Assembly (NCBI RefSeq): GCF_002770595.1
Contig: NZ_CP022986.1
Span: forward strand, 4,092,001-4,156,000
Source of the DNA: Chryseobacterium camelliae
Lineage (GTDB): Bacteria; Bacteroidota; Bacteroidia; Flavobacteriales; Weeksellaceae
Reading direction: 5' to 3'
Length of the DNA stretch: 64,000 nt
A model generated the notes under the pieces. That model saw only the letters and a program-made list of their open reading frames with translations, was not told where the DNA came from and searched no databases. The position numbers and the translations under genes are program-made. Positions 9,268 through 63,953 of the stretch are shown here, piece by piece (within the stretch, counting starts at the first letter, position 1; the number at the start of each line of letters is the position of its first letter).

Positions 9268-9464
9268 AGGTGTTCCTGTACCATTAATGAAGCTCTGTTT
9301 GAATGTGTTTCAAAGGAGAAAAGAGCATCAGGAGCCGGTCAATAACAGACAACAGAATAATTCTTTTCAGTAAGTTGGCGATACGCTGAACTTTGTTTCG
9401 TACTCAACTGACAGAAATTTGATTCTTGCAGTTAGTCGATGATCAGTAGCTGAATATGAATAAA

Positions 9465-17553: not shown

Positions 17554-18555
17554 ATGCAATTCAGAAAATTAGGAAATACAGGAAAAGAACTTTCAGTTAT
17601 TGGATTAGGCTGCATGGGGATGAGTTTTGCCTATGGACCGACGGATGAGCAGGAAAGCATCAACACACTTCATAAAGCACTTGATCTTGGCGTAAACTTC
17701 TGGGATACCGCAGACATGTATGCCAATGGGGAGAATGAAAAACTGATTTCTAAAGTGCTGGTTCCGAACCGGGATAAAATTTTCATTGCCACTAAATTCG
17801 GGTTCAGGTTTAAAGACGGTAAGGCAAGCCACAGCGGTGCGCCGGGAACATACTTTGACGGTTCCCCGGAATGGGTAAGACAGGCTGTAGATGCAAGTCT
17901 TCAGCGGCTAAAGGTTGATGAAATCGACCTGTATTATGCCCATCGTGTAGATCCCAATATCCCTGTCGAGGAAACGGTAGGGGCTATGGCGGAACTGGTA
18001 AAAGCCGGGAAGGTGAAATATATCGGGTTATCAGAAGCTTCCGCATCCTCTATCAGGAAGGCGAATGCTGTTCATCCGATAACGGCCTTACAATCTGAAT
18101 ACTCACTGCTTACCAGGGATGTGGAAAATGAGATTTTACCCGTAATCAGGGAGCTTGGGATTACTTTAGTTCCTTATTCTCCGCTGGCGAGAGGATTGTT
18201 TTCCAACATCAATGACGTTCAGAACTTCGGAGCGGAAGACTTCAGAAAGTCGCTTCCACGTTATCAGGATGAATACCTTGAAAACAATAGAAAGCTGGCT
18301 CAGGAAATCAATGATTTTGCGGCTTCCAAGGGGGTGAAAGGAACCCAGCTGGCTCTTGCCTGGGTATTGAACCAGGGAGAGGATATTATCCCGATTCCGG
18401 GGACGAAAAGAATCAAGTACCTGGAGGAGAATATTGCAGCAGCAGGGTTGAAACTGTCCGGTGAAGATCTCAGCACCATCGATTCAATTCTGAAGAAATA
18501 TCCTCATGTAGGGGAAAGATACAGCGAAGGATCTATGAAGCTGGTTAATAATTAA
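17554..18555 (+). CDS. Aldo/keto reductase, copy 1
   Basis: 333 residues, a TIM-barrel NADPH-dependent oxidoreductase of the AKR13/YajO-like kind. The catalytic tetrad is readable as Asp (FWDTADMY), Tyr (same loop), Lys (ATKFGFRF) and His (YYAHRVDPN); the NADPH-binding end is IPIPGTKRIKYLEEN. It reduces aldehydes and ketones in the cytoplasm; the substrate is unknown. About 94% identical to the next gene, so the two arose by a recent tandem duplication. It lies 88 nt after the AraC gene, behind a putative operator. Confidence 0.9.
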   Translation: MQFRKLGNTGKELSVIGLGCMGMSFAYGPTDEQESINTLHKALDLGVNFWDTADMYANGENEKLISKVLVPNRDKIFIATKFGFRFKDGKASHSGAPGTYFDGSPEWVRQAVDASLQRLKVDEIDLYYAHRVDPNIPVEETVGAMAELVKAGKVKYIGLSEASASSIRKANAVHPITALQSEYSLLTRDVENEILPVIRELGITLVPYSPLARGLFSNINDVQNFGAEDFRKSLPRYQDEYLENNRKLAQEINDFAASKGVKGTQLALAWVLNQGEDIIPIPGTKRIKYLEENIAAAGLKLSGEDLSTIDSILKKYPHVGERYSEGSMKLVNN

Positions 18556-18625
18556 TCTTACAATAACATGCTGTCCTTAATTTTATATACAGGCAGGATG
18601 GCATATATTAAATTCACAAATCGTT

Positions 18626-19627
18626 ATGGAATTCAGAAAACTAGGAAATACAGGAGAAAAACTTTCAGCAGTTGGTCTGGGATGTATGGGAATGAGTGCT
18701 GCTTATGGCCCGGCTGATGAACAGGAGAATATCAAGACACTTTATAAAGCCCTTGACCTCGGCGTTAACTTCTGGGATACGGCTGATATTTATGCCAATG
18801 GTAAGAATGAAAAGCTGATCTCCAAAGTGCTGGTTCCGAACCGGGATAAAATTTTCATTGCCACGAAATTCGGCTTCAGGTTCAAAGACGGAAAGGCAAG
18901 CCACAGCGGTGCGCCGGGCACCTATTTTGACGGCTCTCCGGAATGGATCAGGCAGGCGGTAGATGCAAGCCTCCAGCGGCTGAAGGTTGATGAGATAGAC
19001 CTGTATTATGCGCACCGCGTTGATCCCAATATCCCGGTTGAGGAAACGGTAGGCGCTATGGCTGAACTGGTACAGGCAGGAAAAGTAAAATACCTTGGAT
19101 TGTCAGAAGCTTCCGCAGCTTCCATCAGAAAAGCACATGCTGTTCATCCGATCACTGCTTTGCAGTCTGAATATTCGCTGCTCACCAGGGATGTGGAAAA
19201 TGAAATCTTACCGGTCATCAGGGAGCTGGGAATTACGTTGGTTCCTTATTCTCCGCTGGCGAGAGGATTGTTCTCCAATATCAATGACGTCCAGAACTTC
19301 GGAGCGGAAGACTTCAGAAAGTCGCTTCCAAGATATCAGGATGAATACCTGGAAAATAACAGAAAGCTGGCTCAGGAAATCAATGATTTTGCGGCTTCCA
19401 AAGGGGTGAAAGGAACCCAGCTGGCGCTTGCGTGGGTATTGAACCAGGGAGAAGACATTATCCCGATTCCGGGGACAAAAAGAATCAGATACCTGGAAGA
19501 GAATATTGCCGCCGCAGGGCTGAAACTTTCCGGGGAAGACCTCAAAACCATTGATTCGATTCTGAAGAAATATCCTCATGTAGGGGAGAGGTACAGCGAA
19601 GGATCTATGAAGCTGGTTAATAACTAA
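18626..19627 (+). CDS. Aldo/keto reductase, copy 2
   Basis: 333 residues, a near-identical paralogue of the preceding gene. I count about 19 amino-acid differences, 12 of them in the first 60 residues, while residues about 171-288 are identical. The same catalytic set is kept (FWDTADIY, ATKFGFRF, YYAHRVDPN, IPIPGTKRI). The clustering of changes in the N-terminal loops may alter substrate choice, or later gene conversion may have homogenised the rest. A strong intrinsic terminator follows at 19646. Confidence 0.9.
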   Translation: MEFRKLGNTGEKLSAVGLGCMGMSAAYGPADEQENIKTLYKALDLGVNFWDTADIYANGKNEKLISKVLVPNRDKIFIATKFGFRFKDGKASHSGAPGTYFDGSPEWIRQAVDASLQRLKVDEIDLYYAHRVDPNIPVEETVGAMAELVQAGKVKYLGLSEASAASIRKAHAVHPITALQSEYSLLTRDVENEILPVIRELGITLVPYSPLARGLFSNINDVQNFGAEDFRKSLPRYQDEYLENNRKLAQEINDFAASKGVKGTQLALAWVLNQGEDIIPIPGTKRIRYLEENIAAAGLKLSGEDLKTIDSILKKYPHVGERYSEGSMKLVNN

Positions 19628-53772: not shown

Positions 53773-55710
53773 ATGAAAAGAATACTGTGGGCGGCATTAG
53801 GCTCCCTTACGATGACCTACGTTCAGGCTCAGAAACATGAGTTCCTTAATCCTCCGAAATTCAATGATGCGGACCTGTCCAAACCCAAATCCCTGCTGGA
53901 TGAGAATGCACCGGTGGAAGTATTGTACCGTTCTGCGCATTATAAGATGGATTCCCGTACCGGATATCTTTCCAAAAGTTATTTTTACCGGGTGAAAATT
54001 TACCGGAAAGATAAGGCTGAAGACTGGCTGAACCTTGAAATTCCTCTGTATCAGGGTAATGGAGGCAGCCAGGAAACCATCAGTAGGATCAAAGCATTCA
54101 CCTATAACCTGGATAATGGAGTAAAGGTAGAGACTAAGGTGGAAAACAACTCCAAGTACAAAAGCAAGGAGAACAAAAATGTAACGGTAACAAAATTTGC
54201 ATTTCCTAATGTAAAGGACGGCTCTGTCATCGAATACCAGTATACGGTGGAATCGCCGTTCGCCTATGCTATACCTGAATTCCTGATTGAGACGGATACA
54301 CCTACCCTCTATACGGAATATGTACTGGACAATCCTATCAATATGTCCTATAATGTGAATTATACCGGGTCACTCAATCCAAAATACAGGGAAATCGCAG
54401 ATAAAAACTTATACGGGATGGATTATAAGACGTACCGTTTCGCCTACGAGAACCTGAAGCCCTTCAAGGTGGAAAAATTCGTTAAAAACGACCATAATTA
54501 CAGGACAAAAGTCAGCGCAGAGCTGCATTCCACCAATTTCAGCGAGCTTAAACTCTACTCTTCTTCATGGGATCAGATCCGGCAGAGGCTGTACGATGAT
54601 GAGGACTTCGGCGGCGAGCTGAAAAAAAGCAGGTTTGCCAAAGATAATATGCCCGCCGGAGTGGCAGGCATGAAAAATGAGCTTGACAAGGCCAATGCCA
54701 TATTCAGCTATGTACAGAAAACCTTTACCTGGAACAACAAACGGGGCATCTATACGGAAGACGGACTGAAAAAGATGCTGGAAACAAAGACCGGGAACGC
54801 TGCGGAAATCAACCTGTTCCTGGTGATGCTGATGCGCGAAGCCGGCATCAAAGCTGATCCTGTACTGATTTCCACCATCAATAACGGTATGATCAACCTG
54901 GTTTCTCCCAATGTCGCCAATATGAACCTGGTTATTGCAGCCATTGAGGTGAACGGAGCCATACATGTCTACGACGCTACCACGAAGCAATCATCCGTAG
55001 ACCAGCTTCCGCCGAGAGACTGGAATGAATACGGTGTACTGATGGCCAAAGATAACGTAAAGCAGATCCGGATGATCAATGCCAAGCCAAGCTTTACCTA
55101 TCTGACCACCAATGCAAAAATTAATACGGACGGAAGCATTTCAGGGAATTATACGGACAGGGATACAGGGACTTATGCCATGTATGCCAAAGAAAATTAC
55201 GATGACAATCAGGAAAAGTACAAAAAGCAGTACAAGGAAAATTTTGCGATAGATTTCACAGGCATTACCTCTCAGGTATTGGAAAACGGTGATTTTGAAA
55301 GCAGCATGAGCTTTTCATCCGAGAACCTGATTGATAAAGTGGGCAAGAAAATCATCATTAACCCGTTGCTGTTCATGAATAAAAATTCAAATGAATTTGA
55401 CCAGACCGATGAAAGGAAATACCAGATTGATTTTATTTCCCCGTTTACCAAAGTGAAGAAAATTACCTTGGAAATCCCGGAAGGGTATGCCATCGAGGAA
55501 ATGCCGAAAAATAAGAAGATCGTCACTCAGGACAAGGAAATAGAATACAGCTATACAGCGGAGCAGAAAGGAAACATGCTGGAAGTAACGTCGGTGATGA
55601 CGGTTAAGAGCGCAGACTATCCTAAAGAATATTATTCTGCATTCAAACAGATCTGGGGAACAGCTTCGAAAAGCGAAAACCAGGTTATCAGCCTGATCCG
55701 GAAATCATAA
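53773..55710 (+). CDS. DUF3857/transglutaminase-like secreted protein, apparently non-catalytic
   Basis: 645 residues with a signal peptide cleaved near VQAQ. Same layout as the preceding protein, but the transglutaminase core reads TGNAAEINLFLVML, with Ala343 at the place of the catalytic cysteine, and MNLVIAAIE where the histidine should be; the aspartate in VYDATTK remains. It is therefore probably a pseudoenzyme that binds rather than processes a polymer, maybe a partner of the upstream protein. The two start and stop codons are 2 nt apart. Confidence 0.82.
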   Translation: MKRILWAALGSLTMTYVQAQKHEFLNPPKFNDADLSKPKSLLDENAPVEVLYRSAHYKMDSRTGYLSKSYFYRVKIYRKDKAEDWLNLEIPLYQGNGGSQETISRIKAFTYNLDNGVKVETKVENNSKYKSKENKNVTVTKFAFPNVKDGSVIEYQYTVESPFAYAIPEFLIETDTPTLYTEYVLDNPINMSYNVNYTGSLNPKYREIADKNLYGMDYKTYRFAYENLKPFKVEKFVKNDHNYRTKVSAELHSTNFSELKLYSSSWDQIRQRLYDDEDFGGELKKSRFAKDNMPAGVAGMKNELDKANAIFSYVQKTFTWNNKRGIYTEDGLKKMLETKTGNAAEINLFLVMLMREAGIKADPVLISTINNGMINLVSPNVANMNLVIAAIEVNGAIHVYDATTKQSSVDQLPPRDWNEYGVLMAKDNVKQIRMINAKPSFTYLTTNAKINTDGSISGNYTDRDTGTYAMYAKENYDDNQEKYKKQYKENFAIDFTGITSQVLENGDFESSMSFSSENLIDKVGKKIIINPLLFMNKNSNEFDQTDERKYQIDFISPFTKVKKITLEIPEGYAIEEMPKNKKIVTQDKEIEYSYTAEQKGNMLEVTSVMTVKSADYPKEYYSAFKQIWGTASKSENQVISLIRKS

Positions 55711-55756
55711 CCAGGTACGTAGATTCACATTGTACGAAAACCTTTGAAATAATCTT

Positions 55757-55783
55757 AAAACCATTCATTTTTGAATGGTTTTT
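55757..55783 (+). terminator. Terminator of the DUF3857 gene pair
   Basis: AAAACCATTCA, loop TTT, TGAATGGTTTTT. It lies just upstream of the next gene. Confidence 0.88.
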
Positions 55784-55807
55784 GCATGCATATCCAAAAT
55801 AAAAGTT

Positions 55808-56632
55808 ATGAAAAATATACTGGCAGCCATAACATTGGCTGCTCTATTTTCGGTTTCAGCGTGCAAAAAAAGCGAAACCTCAGGGACCTCCTCTGCAACA
55901 GAAAATTCCAAACCGGGCACGTTCAGGACAGATTCTGTAGCCATCAATGATTCCGTAAAGCTTGCGGATTCCCTGACTGTGCAGTATTCTGCTAAACTTC
56001 TGGTATTTCCTTCCTTACAGGATAAGACCTTGCTCGACAGTATCTATTTCAACAGAAAGGTGCTCAAAGATTTTTCTCAGAAAGGCCTTCAGGCTTATCT
56101 TGAAAAGGATAAGAATGGGTATTTCGATAAATTAAGGAAAGAAAGTAAAGAATACCTGTCGGATATCAGGTTCGGAGAGAAGTGGTATACGGATACATCC
56201 ATGCACCTGAAATCCGTTAATAATGATTTCATGCATATCCAATATATGTGGGGGTCGTATGAAGGCGGTGCCCATGACAATTATGGTTTTTCAGAACGCG
56301 TTTTCGACCTTAAAAACAATAAAAAACTGGAGCTTAAGGATATTACCACCATGCCGGCAGGTAATCTTGAAGCTTTGCTGATGAAAAACATCAACAAAAT
56401 CAACAGCGGAACCACAGACAATAAAGGGCAGGTGAACAATTCGGAGATGCTCCTCGTAGAGGTAATTCCTGCCACGGATAATTTTTATTTTGATGACAAA
56501 AACCTGTATTTCCATTACAGCCCGTATGAAATTGCAGCTTTTGCAGCCGGAGATATTACCATTCCGGTTTCCTGGCAGGAACTGGACAAAACTCTTACTC
56601 CTGCTTTCAGGGAAAGGATGAAATTTAAATGA
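55808..56632 (+). CDS. RsiV/DUF3298-family lipoprotein
   Basis: 274 residues from the ATG at 55808; an earlier in-frame codon lies inside the terminator. Lipobox SVSAC (Cys19). The DUF4163-like first part and the C-terminal DUF3298 domain (YFDDKNLYFHYSPYEIAAFAAGDITIPVSW) are recognisable, as in the extracellular part of RsiV, which binds lysozyme. There is no anti-sigma domain, so it is more likely an envelope-bound binding protein. The stop is 44 nt before the dagK ATG, with a hairpin between. Confidence 0.82.
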   Translation: MKNILAAITLAALFSVSACKKSETSGTSSATENSKPGTFRTDSVAINDSVKLADSLTVQYSAKLLVFPSLQDKTLLDSIYFNRKVLKDFSQKGLQAYLEKDKNGYFDKLRKESKEYLSDIRFGEKWYTDTSMHLKSVNNDFMHIQYMWGSYEGGAHDNYGFSERVFDLKNNKKLELKDITTMPAGNLEALLMKNINKINSGTTDNKGQVNNSEMLLVEVIPATDNFYFDDKNLYFHYSPYEIAAFAAGDITIPVSWQELDKTLTPAFRERMKFK

Positions 56633-56637
56633 TATTT

Positions 56638-56665
56638 AATGCTTCCCTTACGGAAGCATTTTTTA
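56638..56665 (+). terminator. Hairpin between the RsiV-like gene and dagK
   Basis: ATGCTTCC and GGAAGCAT (8-bp stem) followed by a T run; the T run overlaps a TATTTTTG element (56664-56671) of the next gene. Confidence 0.75.
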
Positions 56666-56671
56666 TTTTTG
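56664..56671 (+). promoter_or_regulatory. -7 element of dagK
   Basis: TATTTTTG, exact; only 5 nt separate it from the ATG at 56677, which would give a leaderless transcript. No clear -33 TTG is present. Confidence 0.4.
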
Positions 56672-56676
56672 TGACC

Positions 56677-57528
56677 ATGGAAAATGTCGCTTTCATCATC
56701 AATCCTTTTTCAGCCAAAGGAAATTACCAGCCGTTTCTCAATGCGCTGAAAGCTAAGGTTAAAGATCCCTTATACTATATTTCAGATTCCATTGCCGGGA
56801 CCCATGATTTTATACAGGAACACTTCAGCCATGTGGATATTTTTGTCGCGGTAGGAGGGGACGGGACTATTTCCACCGTAGCACAGTACCTGATCGGTAC
56901 TTCCAGGATCCTCGGAATTTTTCCTGCCGGTTCCGGAAACGGATTTTCAAATGAGACCAATTTCGGGAAAAACCTGGATGAGCTCATCGGTAAACTGCAG
57001 GCCGGGAAATCAAGGAAGATCGATACTTTTACGGTAAATGACAGGCTTTCCATCAATGTTTCTGGGACCGGCTTTGACGGAAAGGTGGTGAAGGAGTTTG
57101 AAAAAACCACGCGCGGCTTTACAAATTATATTAAAGTTTCCATGAAGACATTTTTCAGCTACAAGCCGATCAAGGTTAAATTTTTCGATGAGAAATACCG
57201 GCAGTACAACGGTAAGTACCTGATGCTGAACATTGCCAATACCCGACAGTTCGGGAATAAGGCCTATATTGCCCCGCAGGCAAGCAAAAGTGACGGGCTC
57301 GTGGATATGGTGCTGGTAAAAAAGTTTCCGTTCACCTATTCGCCGCTGTTTGCGTTCAGGATGTTTACCAAGAAGCTTAGGAATGATGATTATATTACCT
57401 ATATTCCCGTTTCCGAGATCGAATTTAAGGTGAATACCAAAAACTGGCACCTGGACGGGGAATTCAACAAAATAAAATCTCCGGTACATGTGAAGGTCCA
57501 GCCGGCCAGCCTGAATATCCTGATCTGA
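56677..57528 (+). CDS. dagK: Diacylglycerol kinase family lipid kinase
   Basis: 283 residues from the ATG at 56677. The DAGK catalytic domain is plain: AVGGDGTIST (GGDGT at 60-64) and FPAGSGNGFSNE (85-90), then SGTGFDGKVV. The C-terminal beta-rich domain ends WHLDGEFNKIKSP. It phosphorylates diacylglycerol or a similar lipid at the membrane. Its last 230 nt occur twice more, in decayed form, at 58191-58405 and 59089-59322. It is convergent with the genes that follow. Confidence 0.9.
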   Translation: MENVAFIINPFSAKGNYQPFLNALKAKVKDPLYYISDSIAGTHDFIQEHFSHVDIFVAVGGDGTISTVAQYLIGTSRILGIFPAGSGNGFSNETNFGKNLDELIGKLQAGKSRKIDTFTVNDRLSINVSGTGFDGKVVKEFEKTTRGFTNYIKVSMKTFFSYKPIKVKFFDEKYRQYNGKYLMLNIANTRQFGNKAYIAPQASKSDGLVDMVLVKKFPFTYSPLFAFRMFTKKLRNDDYITYIPVSEIEFKVNTKNWHLDGEFNKIKSPVHVKVQPASLNILI

Positions 57529-57530
57529 GA

Positions 57531-57986
57531 TTATAGGGTCTGATGAAGGGCAATGCGGTTTCCTTCGCTGTCTTCAAATTCTGCGACGGCAAAACCATGT
57601 TTTCTATTAACGGTTTTAGGATAAAGGATCTTCCCTCCTTTCTCCAGGACTTTTTCTAATGTAAGATCAATGTCTTGGGTCCTGAAATAAAGGATAACAC
57701 CCTTTCGGGTCGGCTGGTAGACATCGCCTTTTGCCAATGCCCCGGAAATCCCGCTGCCGGTTTCTTCAAACGGGAACAGCAGCATTTCATAGTCATCAAT
57801 CATTTCTTTTTCAAACCTGAAACCAAATACATGGCTGTAAAATTTCCGGGCCCTTTCCAGGTCTGTGACAGGAATTTCAAAATAGACCACCGGATTGTTT
57901 TCTTTTATCATCTTATGGTTGTTTTTTGTACAGGACATAAGCAGGATACCGGTCACGCATAACAGCTGCCTGATGTATTGATGCAT
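57531..57986 (-). CDS. VOC-domain lipoprotein (first cargo gene of the dagK-dctA locus)
   Basis: 151 residues. An N-terminal signal peptide with lipobox LLMSC (Cys19) precedes a VOC domain: PVVYFEIPVTDLERARKFY, SHVFGF, then VILYFRTQDIDLTLEKVLEKGG and EFEDSEGNRIALHQ. A cytoplasmic version from M26 (MIKENNPVVYFEIP) is possible, but the lipobox favours an envelope location. The stop lies 2 nt beyond the dagK stop. It sits between the dagK 3' end and a dctA-like fragment. Confidence 0.75.
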   Translation of the reverse strand: MHQYIRQLLCVTGILLMSCTKNNHKMIKENNPVVYFEIPVTDLERARKFYSHVFGFRFEKEMIDDYEMLLFPFEETGSGISGALAKGDVYQPTRKGVILYFRTQDIDLTLEKVLEKGGKILYPKTVNRKHGFAVAEFEDSEGNRIALHQTL

Positions 57987-58011
57987 TTCAATAGTAATTT
58001 AATGATGCCTC

Positions 58012-58405
58012 CGGTTTTTCATCAATTTTATGAGGGTCATTAAAGCAGTACTGTCACTGCTCTTTATCCAGTTGCTTCTCCCAATTCGCAACTACAACTG
58101 CCGCTACAGAGTTTCCGATCACATTCGTCAGCGCTCTGCATTTGCTCATGAATTTATCAATACCAAGCACCAGGTCAGTCCATTTTATGGTCTTGGTCAA
58201 AAATTTCTTTTGATATATTCCGCGTTATTTGCAGTCGGGATATTACCTAATAAGCTCAGGGATGATTATATCACCTATATTCGCGTTTCTGAGATTTGAA
58301 TTTAAGATGAATACCAAAAACTGGAATCTTGACGGGGAATTTAACAAAATGAAATTACCGATTCATGTGAACGTACAGCCGTTAATTTTAAATATTTTAA
58401 TATAG
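58012..58405. repeat. Composite repeat 1: dctA 3' remnant fused to dagK 3' remnant
   Basis: 58012 to about 58188 resembles the last 175 nt of dctA (59785-59960), including the exact stretch CCGATCACATTCGTCAGCGC. From 58191 to 58405 it resembles the last 230 nt of dagK (57301-57528), for example AATACCAAAAACTGG and ACGGGGAATT. Stop codons and shifts make it non-coding as either gene. It separates two cargo genes. The hybrid frame 58030-58299 is a by-product. Confidence 0.85.
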
Positions 58406-58417
58406 TTTTTTGCCGGA

Positions 58418-58876
58418 CTATTTCCAGTAGTTTTTCATAAGATCCGCTACCCATATAGGCTGTTTGATCTCTGTTTTTGGCTGGAATTCCTTAAATACAG
58501 GTTTAATATCAAGTACAGGCGTTCCGTCAATAGCATCAAGAAACTTTACTTTGATAGTTCTATTATTGTGTTCCAGTAATTCCACTGTTGCAAGCCCTAT
58601 TGTGTTCGGTCTGTCCTTTTTACGCTGCCCGAAAATACCTGTCATCGGATAATTTACATTACCTCTCGGATGGCCTGAAAAAACGATATCTTCTTTTTCT
58701 ACCTTATCAAAATAATAAATAATTTCCAGATGGGAAAAGCTTGAAATGCTGTTAAAAGCTTCCGTAGGAATATGGTCTGCCAATTCAATTTCTGCAATGA
58801 TGGTTTCCCAATTGTCATCGATTAGTTCCGTCCTGGAATTTTTTACCGTTGCTACAGGCTGAAGTGTAATTTCCAT
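58418..58876 (-). CDS. TrmO/TsaA-family tRNA methyltransferase-like protein (second cargo gene)
   Basis: 152 residues from the ATG at 58876. FSHLEIIYYFDKV, HPRGNVNYPMTGIFGQRKKDRPNTIGL and the ending LDAIDGTPVLDIKPV are the TrmO (YaeB/TsaA) signature; that family methylates N6-threonylcarbamoyladenosine in tRNA with SAM. It is shorter than E. coli TrmO, so another substrate is possible. Its stop is 12 nt from the dagK remnant of composite repeat 1 and its start is about 34 nt from the dctA remnant of repeat 2. Confidence 0.82.
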   Translation of the reverse strand: MEITLQPVATVKNSRTELIDDNWETIIAEIELADHIPTEAFNSISSFSHLEIIYYFDKVEKEDIVFSGHPRGNVNYPMTGIFGQRKKDRPNTIGLATVELLEHNNRTIKVKFLDAIDGTPVLDIKPVFKEFQPKTEIKQPIWVADLMKNYWK

Positions 58877-58910
58877 ATATGATTTGATTATTACTATTTT
58901 ATATTGATTT

Positions 58911-59322
58911 TTAGATTTCCAGTTTTTTCTCAACTTTACCCGGGTGATCCAGGCAGTATCGAAGTTATTCCTGATCCAGCTGCTTCTTCCAGTTGGCAAC
59001 CATAACATTAGCTGCAGAATTTCCGATCGCATTTGTCAGTGCTCTGCATTTGCTCGTAAATTTATCAATACCAAGCATGAGGGCGTTCCATTTTATGGTT
59101 TTGGTAAAAAATTTCCTTTGACATATTCCGCATTACTTGCATTCCGGATGTTACCTAACAAGCTCAGTGATTATCATTACCCCACCTATATTCGCGTTTT
59201 TGAGATTGAATTTAAGATAATAAATACCAAAAACTGAAATTTAAACCGGGAATTTAATAAGATAAAATCTCCCACTCATCTAAAGGTACAGCCTTCTAGC
59301 CTTACTACCCTTAATTTAACAT
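58911..59322. repeat. Composite repeat 2: dctA 3' remnant fused to dagK 3' remnant
   Basis: 58911-59088 matches the dctA 3' end (it begins TTAGATTTCCAGTTTTTTCT, as at 59785), and 59089-59322 matches the dagK 3' end. The fusion point is the same as in repeat 1 (CCATTTTATGGT followed by TTGGT), and both copies share substitutions absent from the intact genes, for example TTACCTAA and AAGCTCAG. Internal stops show it is not coding; the frame 58944-59237 is a by-product. Confidence 0.85.
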
Positions 59323-59325
59323 GAA

Positions 59326-59781
59326 TTATTCACTGTAAACATTTTTGTTGTGCAGTTCCATCCATTTAGTAGGATCTGCAATATCGGTCCATCCAAATTG
59401 TCGGTACAGCCCGTGTGCATCTCCGGTAAGTAAAATCCATCTTCTCAGGCCTTGTAAATCAGGATGATTCATAATTGTTTCCATTAACCATTTAGAAAGT
59501 CCGTTTCCTCGATATTCTTCCAGGATATATACATCACCTAAATAGGCAATAGTAGAAAAATCAGAGATAATCCGGGCAAAACCTATTTGTTTTTCATTCA
59601 GATAAACTCCGAAGCACATGGAGTTTTGTATGGCAGCCTGTACTTTTGCTTTAGGAATATTTAAGCACCAATATGCTTTGGTTGATAGAAACTCATGTAC
59701 AGCGTCAATATCCAGCCTTGATTTATCTGTAGAAATACAAAACTGGTCTTTATATAGGGCTATATTTTTCATGTACGTCAT
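59326..59781 (-). CDS. GNAT-family N-acetyltransferase (third cargo gene)
   Basis: 151 residues. IGFARIISDFSTIAYLGDVYILEEYRGNGLSKWLMETI contains the acetyl-CoA-binding R-G-N-G-L loop, and WILLTGDAHGLYRQFGW is the typical C-terminal part of this GNAT group. The acceptor is unknown. Start 59781 or 59772. It begins 3-12 nt after the dctA stop on the same strand, so it can be read from the dctA transcript; its stop lies 3 nt from the dagK remnant of repeat 2. Confidence 0.82.
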   Translation of the reverse strand: MTYMKNIALYKDQFCISTDKSRLDIDAVHEFLSTKAYWCLNIPKAKVQAAIQNSMCFGVYLNEKQIGFARIISDFSTIAYLGDVYILEEYRGNGLSKWLMETIMNHPDLQGLRRWILLTGDAHGLYRQFGWTDIADPTKWMELHNKNVYSE

Positions 59782-59784
59782 CTA

Positions 59785-61071
59785 TTAGATTTCCAGTTTT
59801 TTCTCAACTTCATCCGGGTGATCCAGACAATACTGCAGCCACTCTTTATCAAGCTGTTTTTCCCAATTAGCTACGACAACCGTCGCTACGGAATTTCCGA
59901 TCACATTCGTCAGCGCTCTGCATTCGCTCATAAATTTATCGATGCCCAGGATCAGGGTCATTCCTGCCAGGGGAATTTCAGGCACAACGGCTAGCGTTGC
60001 CGCTAAGGTAACGAATCCGGCTCCTGTTACGCCTGCTGCGCCTTTTGAGCTGAGCATCGCTACCAGAAGCAGCAGCAATTGTTTTTCCAATGGCAGGTGG
60101 ATGTTCAGTGCTTGGGCAATAAACAGGGAGGCCAGCGTCATATAGATATTGGTGCCATCCAGGTTGAAGGAATAGCCGGTAGGAACAACCAGCCCTACAA
60201 TAGCTTTCGAACAGCCTGCTTTTTCCAGTTTCTCCATGATTCCCGGCAAAGCGGATTCTGAAGAGCTGGTTCCCAGCACCAGCAAAAGCTCCTCTTTAAG
60301 GAAATACATCAGCTTAAAGATATTAAAGCCGTTATAAAGGGCGACCGAACCCAGCACGATCACTATAAACAGGATGGAAGTAATGTAGAATGTGCCCACC
60401 AGGAAAATAAGGTTCAGCACAGAATGAAGACCATATTTCCCAATGGTGAACGCCATAGCTCCGAAAGCCCCGATAGGCGCAAGCTTCATCAGCATATGCA
60501 CGATCTTGAAGACCGGAGCAGACAGGTCCTGAAGGAATTCAGTGACTTTAGCGCTTTTTTCTTTCGTCAGGACCAGGGCCACACCCATAAGGATGGCTAC
60601 CAAAAGGACCTGCAGTATGTTTTCACCAACCAGCGGACTAAACAGGGTTTCCGGGATAATATTCATGATGAAACCCGTGAGAGTAGATTCGTGTGCCTTC
60701 TGCTGGTACTGTGAAACATCCCCGGAAAGTGTGGCCGGATTAACATTCAGTCCATGTCCCGGCTGCAGCAGGTTGCCCACGACAAGTCCGATGATCAGTG
60801 CCAGGGTTGAGAATGTAATGAAATAGATCATTGCTTTCATGGCAATTCTCCCGACTTTCTTAAGATCGGTCATATGCGCAATCCCGAGGGTAAGGGTAAT
60901 GAAAATCACCGGAGCAATGATCATTTTCACCAGCCGGATGAAACCGTCGCCCAAAGGCTTCATTTTTTCACCCAGTTCCGGGTAAAACCTCCCTAAAAGA
61001 ATTCCTGCAATGATGGCGACAACAACCTGGAAATAGATCTGCCGGTAAAATTTCTTCGTCTTCAAAATCAA
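59785..61071 (-). CDS. dctA: Dicarboxylate/amino acid:cation symporter (DAACS), DctA-like
   Basis: 428 residues, eight membrane segments and two reentrant loops. [20 protein letters not shown], the serine-rich [17 protein letters not shown] hairpin, the [15 protein letters not shown] and the [17 protein letters not shown] motifs are characteristic. It imports C4-dicarboxylates or glutamate with H+ or Na+. The first usable start seems to be a non-ATG codon (TTG) just before [10 protein letters not shown]. Its 3' end is duplicated in the two composite repeats downstream. Confidence 0.9.
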
Positions 61072-61135
61072 TCTTTAAATGTTCAGAGCCGGAAATTAAG
61101 AAAATTAATCTGAAGTATGATAAAAGTCAGTAAAA

Positions 61136-61166
61136 GTTTCGGCGGGGCTGAAAGCCCCGCCGAAAC
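61136..61166 (-). terminator. Long hairpin downstream of ggt
   Basis: GTTTCGGCGGGGCT, loop of 3 nt, and its exact complement form a 14-bp GC-rich stem. It is 47 nt after the ggt stop and, on the minus strand, is followed by CTTTTACT, a weak T run. It lies between ggt and dctA on the same strand. Confidence 0.6.
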
Positions 61167-61213
61167 ATATAACGTCTAAAACGGTGTTAAAAACGACCAG
61201 TGATTGACTGTCA

Positions 61214-62899
61214 TCATTCTATGGCTACGGAATCATCACCCCTGCCGTCCGCTACAGCCTGGATATTACCATTGTCATCCCGGGTGATCATTTCGGTTTT
61301 TCCGATCTGTTTGACTTTTTCAAAAGTGTAATTCTTAGCCTTTAATTCTGCTATGGTGCTTTCAGGGAAGTTTTCCTCCACCTTTATTGTTTCAGGCAGC
61401 CATTGCTGATGGAATTTCGGGGCATTAACGGAGATATTCGCGTTTTGCCTGAAATCAACCACATTGACAATCGATTGGTATACTGAAGTTGGAATCGTAG
61501 TTCCTCCGGGTGTACCCACAACCATATACGGTTTTCCGTTCTTAAGAAGGATTGTAGGCGTCATGGAGGAGAGCATTCTCTTGTTAGGCTGTATGGAATT
61601 GGCTTCACCACCTACAGCACCGAACATATTCGGTACACCGGGTTTAATGGAAAAGTCATCCATTTCATTGTTAAGGAAGAATCCGGCTCCGGATACCACG
61701 ACCTTGCTGCCATAATAGCCGTTAAGCGTTGTGGTGACAGAAGCTGCATTGCCGTCTTTATCCAGCACGGAGATATGGGTTGTCTGCGTCGATTCTTTGG
61801 GCTGGGCAATGATCTTGCCAACTTCAGAGCTTGGGGTTGCCCTATCAAAGCTGAAGTTTTTCCACCGGCCCTTCAGGTACTCATCAGAGATCAGGTAATT
61901 GGTTTTATCCTGAATAAAATCCGGGTCACCCATATATTCGGCACGGTCTGCAAAAGCCCTTCGTTCCGCTTCTGCCATGATCTGTACAGCTTTTGTTGAG
62001 TTCTGCTGGTATTGCTCAAGGTTTTCAAAGCTTGCCATCCTGAGCATCTGGGCCAGGAGGAGCCCGCCGCTTGACGGCAGCGGCATGGAAACCACACGGT
62101 TGCCTTTATAATCGAATTCAAGCGCCTTTCTTTCTGCGACCTTATAGTTTTTAAGATCCTGCAGGGTGATAATCCCGTTGCCCTTCTTCATTTCCGCAAC
62201 GATGAGGGCAGCCGTTTTACCTTCGTAAAAACCTTTGGCACCCAGTTTCTGGATCAGCTTTAACGTTTCCGCCAGCTCTTTCTGGATGAGGATGTCGCCT
62301 GCCTTCCAGGGTACATCCTTAACAAACGCATTGGCTGTCGTATTGTGTTTTTTGAATGCATCCCTGTGCCTGTTGAGCATATCCGCTTCCTGTTCCGTGA
62401 CGGCGAATCCTTTTTCAGCTAAGTCAATTGAGGGCTGGATGATCTTTTCCATCGGAAGCCTGCAGTATTTCAACGTCGCAAAAAAGCCTGCAACACTTCC
62501 GGGAATGCCTACGGCAAGCCGCCCGTTCTGGGAAAGGTCTGTACTGGCTTTTCCGCTTTTATCAAGGTACATATCCCTCGATGCTTTCAGGGGAGCAGTT
62601 TCCCGGTAATCCAGGGTAAACTTTTCGCCGTTGTTTTTGACGCCGACCAGAAATCCGCCGCCGCCAATATTGCCTGCCTGAGGATAAACGACGGCCAATG
62701 CATACTGCGTAGCAACTGCTGCGTCATAAGCATTGCCGCCCATTTTCAAAATGCTGGCACCGGCTTCGCTGGCCAGCGGATGGGCGGAGACTACCACACC
62801 TTTGTTTTTTACTTTTACCTCCTTTACAATCGTAATGTCTGTGTACTGTGCTGAGAAATATTGCGTTATCAGTACCCCTATAATGATCATCTTCTTCAT
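61214..62899 (-). CDS. ggt: Gamma-glutamyltransferase
   Basis: 561 residues with a signal peptide (to about residue 17, QYFSAQ). It is an Ntn hydrolase that cleaves itself into two subunits; the nucleophile is the threonine at STQTTHISVLDKDGNA (Thr373/374). The large subunit carries VVVSAHPLASEAGASILKMGGNAYDA and the substrate-binding RETAPL (Arg99); the lid-like GYYGSKVV and PSSGGLLLAQML follow. It removes gamma-glutamyl groups from glutathione in the periplasm. Confidence 0.95.
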   Translation of the reverse strand: MKKMIIIGVLITQYFSAQYTDITIVKEVKVKNKGVVVSAHPLASEAGASILKMGGNAYDAAVATQYALAVVYPQAGNIGGGGFLVGVKNNGEKFTLDYRETAPLKASRDMYLDKSGKASTDLSQNGRLAVGIPGSVAGFFATLKYCRLPMEKIIQPSIDLAEKGFAVTEQEADMLNRHRDAFKKHNTTANAFVKDVPWKAGDILIQKELAETLKLIQKLGAKGFYEGKTAALIVAEMKKGNGIITLQDLKNYKVAERKALEFDYKGNRVVSMPLPSSGGLLLAQMLRMASFENLEQYQQNSTKAVQIMAEAERRAFADRAEYMGDPDFIQDKTNYLISDEYLKGRWKNFSFDRATPSSEVGKIIAQPKESTQTTHISVLDKDGNAASVTTTLNGYYGSKVVVSGAGFFLNNEMDDFSIKPGVPNMFGAVGGEANSIQPNKRMLSSMTPTILLKNGKPYMVVGTPGGTTIPTSVYQSIVNVVDFRQNANISVNAPKFHQQWLPETIKVEENFPESTIAELKAKNYTFEKVKQIGKTEMITRDDNGNIQAVADGRGDDSVAIE

Positions 62900-62930
62900 G
62901 ATAAAAAATATACCCGAATTTACAATTTTG

Positions 62931-62963
62931 TTTTTGAATAGGGGGTTAAAATCTTTATTTTTG
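62931..62963 (+). promoter_or_regulatory. Promoter of the threonine dehydrogenase gene
   Basis: TTTTTG (62931-62936), 19 nt, TATTTTTG (62956-62963), 24 nt before the ATG at 62988; a textbook flavobacterial promoter. Confidence 0.7.
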
Positions 62964-62987
62964 CTTCAATCAACTAAAAAGAAAACA

Positions 62988-63953
62988 ATGGAATCCTATA
63001 CGGAAAAAATCCTGATTACCGGTGCTTTGGGCCAGATCGGCACAGAGCTTACCAACCGCCTGGTTGAAATTCACGGCGCAGACAATGTAGTAGCTTCGGG
63101 TCTTGACAAATGGCAGGAAGGCATCAGCTCGGCAGGTCATTATGAGAGACTGGATGTGACCAATACAAAATTGGTGAGGCAAGTCATCAAAGATTATGAA
63201 ATCACTACGGTATACCATCTGGCATCCCTGCTGTCAGGAACTTCGGAAAAACAGCCGCTGTTCGCATGGAAACTGAACCTGGAGCCTCTTATCGATTTTT
63301 GTGAAATGGCGAAGGAAGGGCTTATCAAAAAGATTTTCTGGCCAAGCTCTATTGCGGTCTTCGGGAAAGGGATTCCAAAAGAAAATGTGGGGCAGGAGGT
63401 AGTGCTGAATCCTACCACCGTATATGGGATCTCCAAAATGGCAGGGGAGAAGTGGTGCGAATATTACTTCGATAAATACGGCGTAGACGTTAGAAGCATC
63501 AGGTATCCCGGATTGATCTCCTGGAAGACTCCGGCAGGCGGCGGGACTACGGATTATGCTGTGGAAATTTTTTATAAAGCCATAGAGGACGGAAAATACA
63601 CCAGCTTTATTTCTGAAGATACCGCCATGCCGATGCTGTATATGGATGATGCTATTGAAGCTACCCTGAAATTGATGGATGCTCCTAAGGAGAGCCTGAC
63701 GGTCCGTTCATCGTACAACCTGGGCGGAATGTCTTTCACCCCCAAACAGCTGGCTGAAGAAATCAGGAAAGAAATCCCGGGATTTGAGATCAGCTATGAG
63801 CCCGATTTTAGACAGGCCATTGCAGATTCCTGGCCGGCATCCATTGATGATTCCACGGCAAAAAACGACTGGAAACTTTCTTACAATTTCGGAATTTCCG
63901 AAATGACTCAGGACATGATTAAAAATCTAAGAATAAAATTAGGTAAAAATTAA
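62988..63953 (+). CDS. L-threonine 3-dehydrogenase, SDR (GalE-like) type
   Basis: 321 residues from the ATG at 62988; the open frame upstream runs antisense into ggt. The Rossmann motif is TGALGQIG (11-18), the catalytic set is Ser120/121, Tyr146 and Lys150 (YGISK), and GLISWKTPAGGGTTDYAVEIF is the signature of the short-chain threonine dehydrogenases described in Flavobacterium and in vertebrates, not the zinc-dependent enzyme. It oxidises threonine to 2-amino-3-oxobutyrate with NAD+. Confidence 0.9.
   Translation: MESYTEKILITGALGQIGTELTNRLVEIHGADNVVASGLDKWQEGISSAGHYERLDVTNTKLVRQVIKDYEITTVYHLASLLSGTSEKQPLFAWKLNLEPLIDFCEMAKEGLIKKIFWPSSIAVFGKGIPKENVGQEVVLNPTTVYGISKMAGEKWCEYYFDKYGVDVRSIRYPGLISWKTPAGGGTTDYAVEIFYKAIEDGKYTSFISEDTAMPMLYMDDAIEATLKLMDAPKESLTVRSSYNLGGMSFTPKQLAEEIRKEIPGFEISYEPDFRQAIADSWPASIDDSTAKNDWKLSYNFGISEMTQDMIKNLRIKLGKN

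Follow-up and report, generated by a model that had tools for sequence, protein, structure and literature searches.

Species of Chryseobacterium keep a gap between the convergent genes dagK and dctA that most probably acts as a slot for homologous recombination, resembling a minimal mobile element (MME), and in the lineage described here this slot was probably joined once by an illegitimate event and then multiplied by homologous recombination. In the window (the whole stretch of DNA that was analysed, 64 kb), the gap holds three genes of unrelated families, all on the minus strand and separated by two joints made of gene tails, in the order dagK-VOC-joint-TrmO-joint-GNAT-dctA (Table 1). The array of three cargos and two dctA-tail/dagK-tail joints is confirmed. 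We considered the remnants themselves, the contents of the same gap in other species, the divergence of the cargos relative to the flanking genes, and the mosaic ancestry of the tails, and weighed them against other ways in which such an array could have arisen.

Structure of the locus

Table 1. Features of the dagK-dctA interval (window positions).
Feature	Position	Strand	Remarks
dagK, YegS/BmrU-type lipid kinase	56677-57528	+	intact left flank; Pfam DAGK_cat + YegS_C; last ~220 nt = repeated tail
Cargo 1, VOC (glyoxalase/bleomycin-resistance superfamily) putative lipoprotein	57531-57986	-	Pfam PF00903, E 3e-11
dctA 3' remnant 1, VOC-linked	58004-58181	-	78% over 173 nt vs intact dctA
Joint 1, dctA tail/dagK tail	58175-58190		breakpoint as in joint 2 (alignment)
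dagK 3' remnant 1, TrmO-linked	58185-58405	+	frameshifted; 79% over 200 nt
Cargo 2, TrmO-like tRNA methyltransferase	58418-58876	-	Pfam PF01980, E 2e-23
dctA 3' remnant 2, TrmO-linked	58911-59088	-	79% over 180 nt
Joint 2, dctA tail/dagK tail	59080-59098		breakpoint as in joint 1 (alignment)
dagK 3' remnant 2, GNAT-linked	59094-59318	+	in-frame TGA; 73% over 219 nt
Cargo 3, GNAT acetyltransferase	59326-59781	-	Pfam PF00583, E 9e-12
dctA, C4-dicarboxylate transporter	59785-61071	-	intact right flank; NCBIfam NF002461, E 6e-194

The initial annotation, made from the sequence alone, had described three non-homologous cargos, each lying between a dagK tail on the left and a dctA tail on the right, and this layout holds (BLAST E 1e-36 to 1e-43). 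When the interval was searched by BLAST with its own gene tails, all four remnants that the annotation had expected to align were recovered with significance (E 8e-43 and 3e-37 for dagK remnants 1 and 2, 2e-36 and 2e-39 for dctA remnants 1 and 2). The only other self-matches in the window were one gene pair and a repeat near the left end, so the remnants are not background. Both dagK remnants are disabled as reading frames, and the assignments of the intact dagK and dctA are backed by Pfam and NCBIfam. The distances from cargo stop to dagK tail, given earlier as 2-12 nt, were measured as 2 nt (VOC), 12 nt (TrmO), and ~5 nt (GNAT), and the GNAT start codon lies 3 nt from the dctA stop. An assembly artefact was rejected, as the genome of the window (G000) is one closed contig (4.38 Mb) and the layout recurs in G107, another genome assembled as one contig.

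The tail copies repeat in direct orientation and in register. Aligned to each other, joints 1 and 2 show 78% identity over 260 nt and the same breakpoint; their likeness falls from 85% at the centre to 69% at the cargo ends (p 1e-4). Because both joints share one breakpoint, one illegitimate event followed by homologous recombination is the probable history, and a single joining event, then copying with replacement of the cargo-side sequence, probably explains this pattern of likeness. The initial annotation had proposed that alleles of the interval, each with its own gene, were added one by one; the addition of alleles stands, but not a separate illegitimate event for each, since the joints are copies of one joint.

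Variation of the slot in Chryseobacterium

All 175 Chryseobacterium genomes searched contain dagK, and dctA is convergent to it in the 166 intervals examined; with one genome per species the comparison is between species, strain-level exchange lying outside these data. Most intervals are shorter than 280 nt and gene-free, while 34 of the 166 contain one or more ORFs of at least 100 aa, belonging to about ten unrelated kinds. These comprise VOC, c1 (an unknown protein of ~165 aa), TrmO, GNAT, a sulfatase-like protein, a three-gene set, and several secreted-looking proteins, the later kinds in this list being typed by sequence appearance only. The small single cargos (VOC of the window type, c1, TrmO, and GNAT) leave 2-12 nt between their end and the dagK stop, begin at a distance of 0-46 nt from the stop of dctA or overlap it by 4 nt, and are always oriented as dctA; larger cargos and a second VOC clade leave a wider gap on the dagK side. 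Most cargo-bearing genomes hold a single alternative, and two (G000 and G107) hold three in tandem. The initial annotation had made its cassette idea depend on variation at this locus: G107 does carry all three genes in the window's order, but across the genus the locus varies widely. Remnants were searched for in the other genomes with their own tails as well as with all tails, and were found only in G107, in G178 and, as a 40-nt case, in G114. In one further genome (L139 of G200), dctA lies in two pieces ~1.5 kb apart, which suggests an insertion inside dctA.

Each cargo of the window also occurs as the sole occupant of the slot in other species: VOC in G203 (as an interrupted ORF), in G019 and as the second VOC clade, TrmO in G165, G027, and G050, and GNAT in G115. 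The earlier proposal of alternative alleles of the dagK-dctA interval, each with a gene of its own, is thus borne out for all three. Close TrmO homologues are rare (6 in 299 genomes of the family), and 5 of the 6 lie in the dagK-dctA slot; TrmO or GNAT genes located elsewhere, in G143, G036, and G117, are without dagK-dctA context.

Divergence at fourfold-degenerate sites was compared between cargo and dagK+dctA with Fisher tests. For VOC, silent-site divergence between the window and G019 was 0.20 vs. 0.61 in dagK+dctA (p 6e-8), while for TrmO it was 0.04 vs. 0.42 between the window and G107 (p 4e-9) and 0.28 vs. 0.64 between the window and G027 (p 3e-6). GNAT diverges like the core genes (0.36 vs. 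0.42 for G107, 0.60 vs. 0.66 for G115), so the case for its movement rests solely on its patchy presence; the TrmO of G050, too, is as diverged as the core genes. On a tree built from the bodies of the flanking genes, c1 required 7 state changes for 8 carriers and TrmO 5 for 5, counts in which gains and losses are indistinguishable and which the silent-site test separates for VOC and TrmO. By this measure of divergence, VOC and TrmO can be shown to have moved between species. A purely vertical history, in which an ancient three-gene array of the genus was lost piecemeal in most species, would agree with the gene order common to G107 and the window and with the vertical level of GNAT divergence, but it is barely credible given that silent-site divergence of VOC and TrmO is far below that of the flanking genes and that single alleles are scattered on the tree without scars of other units.

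A plasmid or phage vehicle was also considered and rejected, as phage sequences gave no match and plasmids gave only an 83-86 nt match to the dctA tail, with no copy of the array.

Mosaic tails

Whole-remnant nearest-neighbour placing gave a weak signal, the remnants being short and decayed, and for this reason they were compared tract by tract. In the window, the dagK stop codon next to TrmO and the adjoining spacer are similar to those of the TrmO-bearing G165 and G027 and differ from those of the window's own dagK (45 of 50 positions identical to G165 vs. 27 to its own). The last 34 nt of dagK remnant 1 likewise match G165 at 30 of 34 positions vs. 19 of 34 for the own dagK, whereas 77-152 nt upstream the remnant is closer to its own lineage (70/75 to G203 vs. 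60/75 to G165). On the other side, dctA remnant 2 has TrmO-dctA spacer sequence in common with G165 and G027. Similarly, the VOC-proximal part of dctA remnant 1 matches the tail of the VOC-bearing G203; in G107, the dctA remnant beside VOC is a near-perfect match to the G203 dctA tail (42/42 in one segment of the alignment) and not to the dctA of G107 itself. The joint-side part of dagK remnant 2 is identical to G107 dagK (34/34). The strongest of these comparisons span just 34-75 nt, and the tract p-values (0.006 and 0.03) are descriptive only, the segments having been picked after inspection of the profiles.

That the remnants beside a cargo resemble the tails of species with that cargo alone supports the reading as alleles given in the initial annotation. 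Tails that are donor-like near the cargo and recipient-like farther away fit the footprints expected of crossovers inside the tails.

Origin of the array and alternative explanations

We propose that species keep different small genes in the slot, packed against both stop codons and read in the direction of dctA, and that incoming DNA would be exchanged by crossovers in the conserved dagK and dctA tails, each cargo bringing a stretch of donor tail along. In the lineage of the window and G107, an illegitimate event that joined the tail of dctA to that of dagK would have produced a tandem duplication of the slot; homologous recombination, by unequal crossing-over, replacement of one copy by another allele, or integration of a circle excised earlier, may then have multiplied the joint and placed different alleles in the copies, giving the present order. 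As the route, sequence comparison gives the most support to homologous recombination within the tails. We infer the order of the steps, their RecA dependence, natural transformation as the mode of entry, and any benefit of keeping more than one allele. The genome of the window encodes ComEC and DprA, which belong to widespread families that also occur in organisms not known to be competent. In the related genus Riemerella, natural competence works through ComEC, DprA, and RecA (PMC8459023).

The joint-adjacent dagK sequence is closest to the dagK of G107 among all genomes compared, so the joint probably arose in a G107-like lineage. Identity between the window and G107 is 82-86% in dagK, GNAT, and dctA and 93-98% from dagK remnant 1 through dagK remnant 2, which suggests that the middle unit was passed later between the two lineages. 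The closest relative of the window, G203, has VOC alone in the slot, and this may be either the ancestral state or a deletion product. Two-unit intermediates (VOC-TrmO or TrmO-GNAT) were not found among the genus intervals examined. Duplication of the slot recurs, as an independent array is present in G178 (interval L297: VOC, a 130-nt dctA remnant, a copy of the empty spacer, and dctA, with dagK broken in the assembly), its joint differing in breakpoint from those of the window, and the last 40 nt of dagK and the empty spacer are tandemly duplicated in G114 (interval L236).

The initial annotation had also offered a variant in which circles carrying one gene plus a dctA-dagK joint integrate repeatedly. 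Such units would excise by recombination between the repeated tails, and one crossover with any dagK or dctA tail would return them to the chromosome, so that the locus would act as a RecA-driven cassette reservoir. The register of the direct repeats and the breakpoint common to both joints agree with this, and the single VOC of G203, which has a hybrid dctA tail, could be the result of a deletion; nevertheless we regard it as unlikely, since no circular form or autonomous copy was seen, plasmid and phage matches to the array are absent, and linear exchange of alleles accounts for the same sequences. Repeated homology-facilitated illegitimate recombination, in which each allele is joined by homology at one end and by end joining at the other, could create the first joint, has been discussed as a mechanism for type VI secretion system (T6SS) arrays (PMC5361080), and would suit the independent joint in G178, but two additions are not expected to pick the same breakpoint twice, and as the sole mechanism it is disfavoured and quite improbable.

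Insertion by a site-specific element (integron-like cassettes or an unknown recombinase) could be suspected from the cassette-like size, common orientation, and tight packing of the genes. The locus had been called integrase-free in appearance, and indeed no recombinase or integrase gene was found among the cargo and flanking genes scanned from 53773 to 63953 (VOC, TrmO, GNAT, transglutaminase, DUF3298, GGT, and epimerase). The separators can be aligned along their length to the tails of dctA and dagK, have folds no more stable than those of most shuffled sequences (z-scores 0.06 to -1.95), and gave no Rfam match. Integron- or attC-like separators were rejected, the joints being decayed coding tails with no unusual fold, and an RNA element at the joints was rejected on the lack of an Rfam match. 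Moreover, independent joints differ in breakpoint, and alignments show no common short core site at the cassette ends, so a site-specific element is very improbable.

A wider form of the preferred reading, in which conserved gene tails are general recombination handles and a dynamic cassette array is kept up in Chryseobacterium solely by homologous recombination, with units captured, duplicated, excised, passed between species and all perhaps transcribed from dctA, is possible, if rather doubtful.

Comparison with known systems

The usual picture of an MME is of one gene replacing another. In Neisseria, they are cassettes that change places when the conserved genes on either side undergo homologous recombination (Saunders and Snyder 2002, definition per PMC3898611), and the dagK-dctA slot fits most of that definition: it is bounded by two conserved genes, holds different whole-gene cassettes in different genomes (about ten cargos as well as empty slots), and lacks a mobility gene among the cargo and flanking genes scanned. 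The mosaic tails and the low divergence of VOC and TrmO favour the view that cargo would be incorporated by homologous recombination in the flanks. The slot departs from the definition in the tandem retention of alternatives. In Neisseria MMEs as so defined, alternative cassettes occupy different strains, whereas here species were compared and a single genome holds three cassettes in tandem, with duplicated tails of dagK and dctA between them. We read the definition, which does not give this as a strict rule, to mean that alternatives replace one another, and G000 and G107 depart from this.

In Vibrio cholerae, alleles of one locus stack in tandem in T6SS immunity arrays, leaving 3' remnants of the displaced gene, and recombination without an integrase has been given as the explanation (PMC5361080). 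Those arrays consist of related effector-immunity modules, whereas the cargos here are small enzymes of unrelated families, tails of both flanking genes are left behind, and the two joints derive from one by copying. Integron arrays are similar in having one small gene per unit, the same orientation, and a recurrent separator, but the separators here are decayed dctA and dagK coding tails instead of attC sites, and no IntI integrase is present among the scanned genes. The statement in the initial annotation that no description of such a locus was known is therefore too broad with respect to single-cassette behaviour (known from MMEs, PMC3898611) and to tandem accumulation of alleles (PMC5361080). 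For a stacked MME it stands: no description was found in the literature searched, which is weak evidence, the original MME papers lying outside the readable text.

The locus indicates that the MME route can pile up unrelated genes in a row with donor scars still readable, and suggests that ordinary recombination of DNA is enough to assemble an array of cassettes without an integrase. With a slot comparable across ~170 species, it offers a natural record for testing the entry of genes into chromosomes without integrases and transposons.

Other repeats in the window

Two adjacent genes at 17554-19627, aldo/keto-reductase-like by sequence appearance, are 87% identical over 1019 nt and represent a recent tandem gene duplication. 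A 166-nt tandem repeat (2.9 copies, 95% match) occupies 541-1022, and a related inverted copy is located at 9315-9405.
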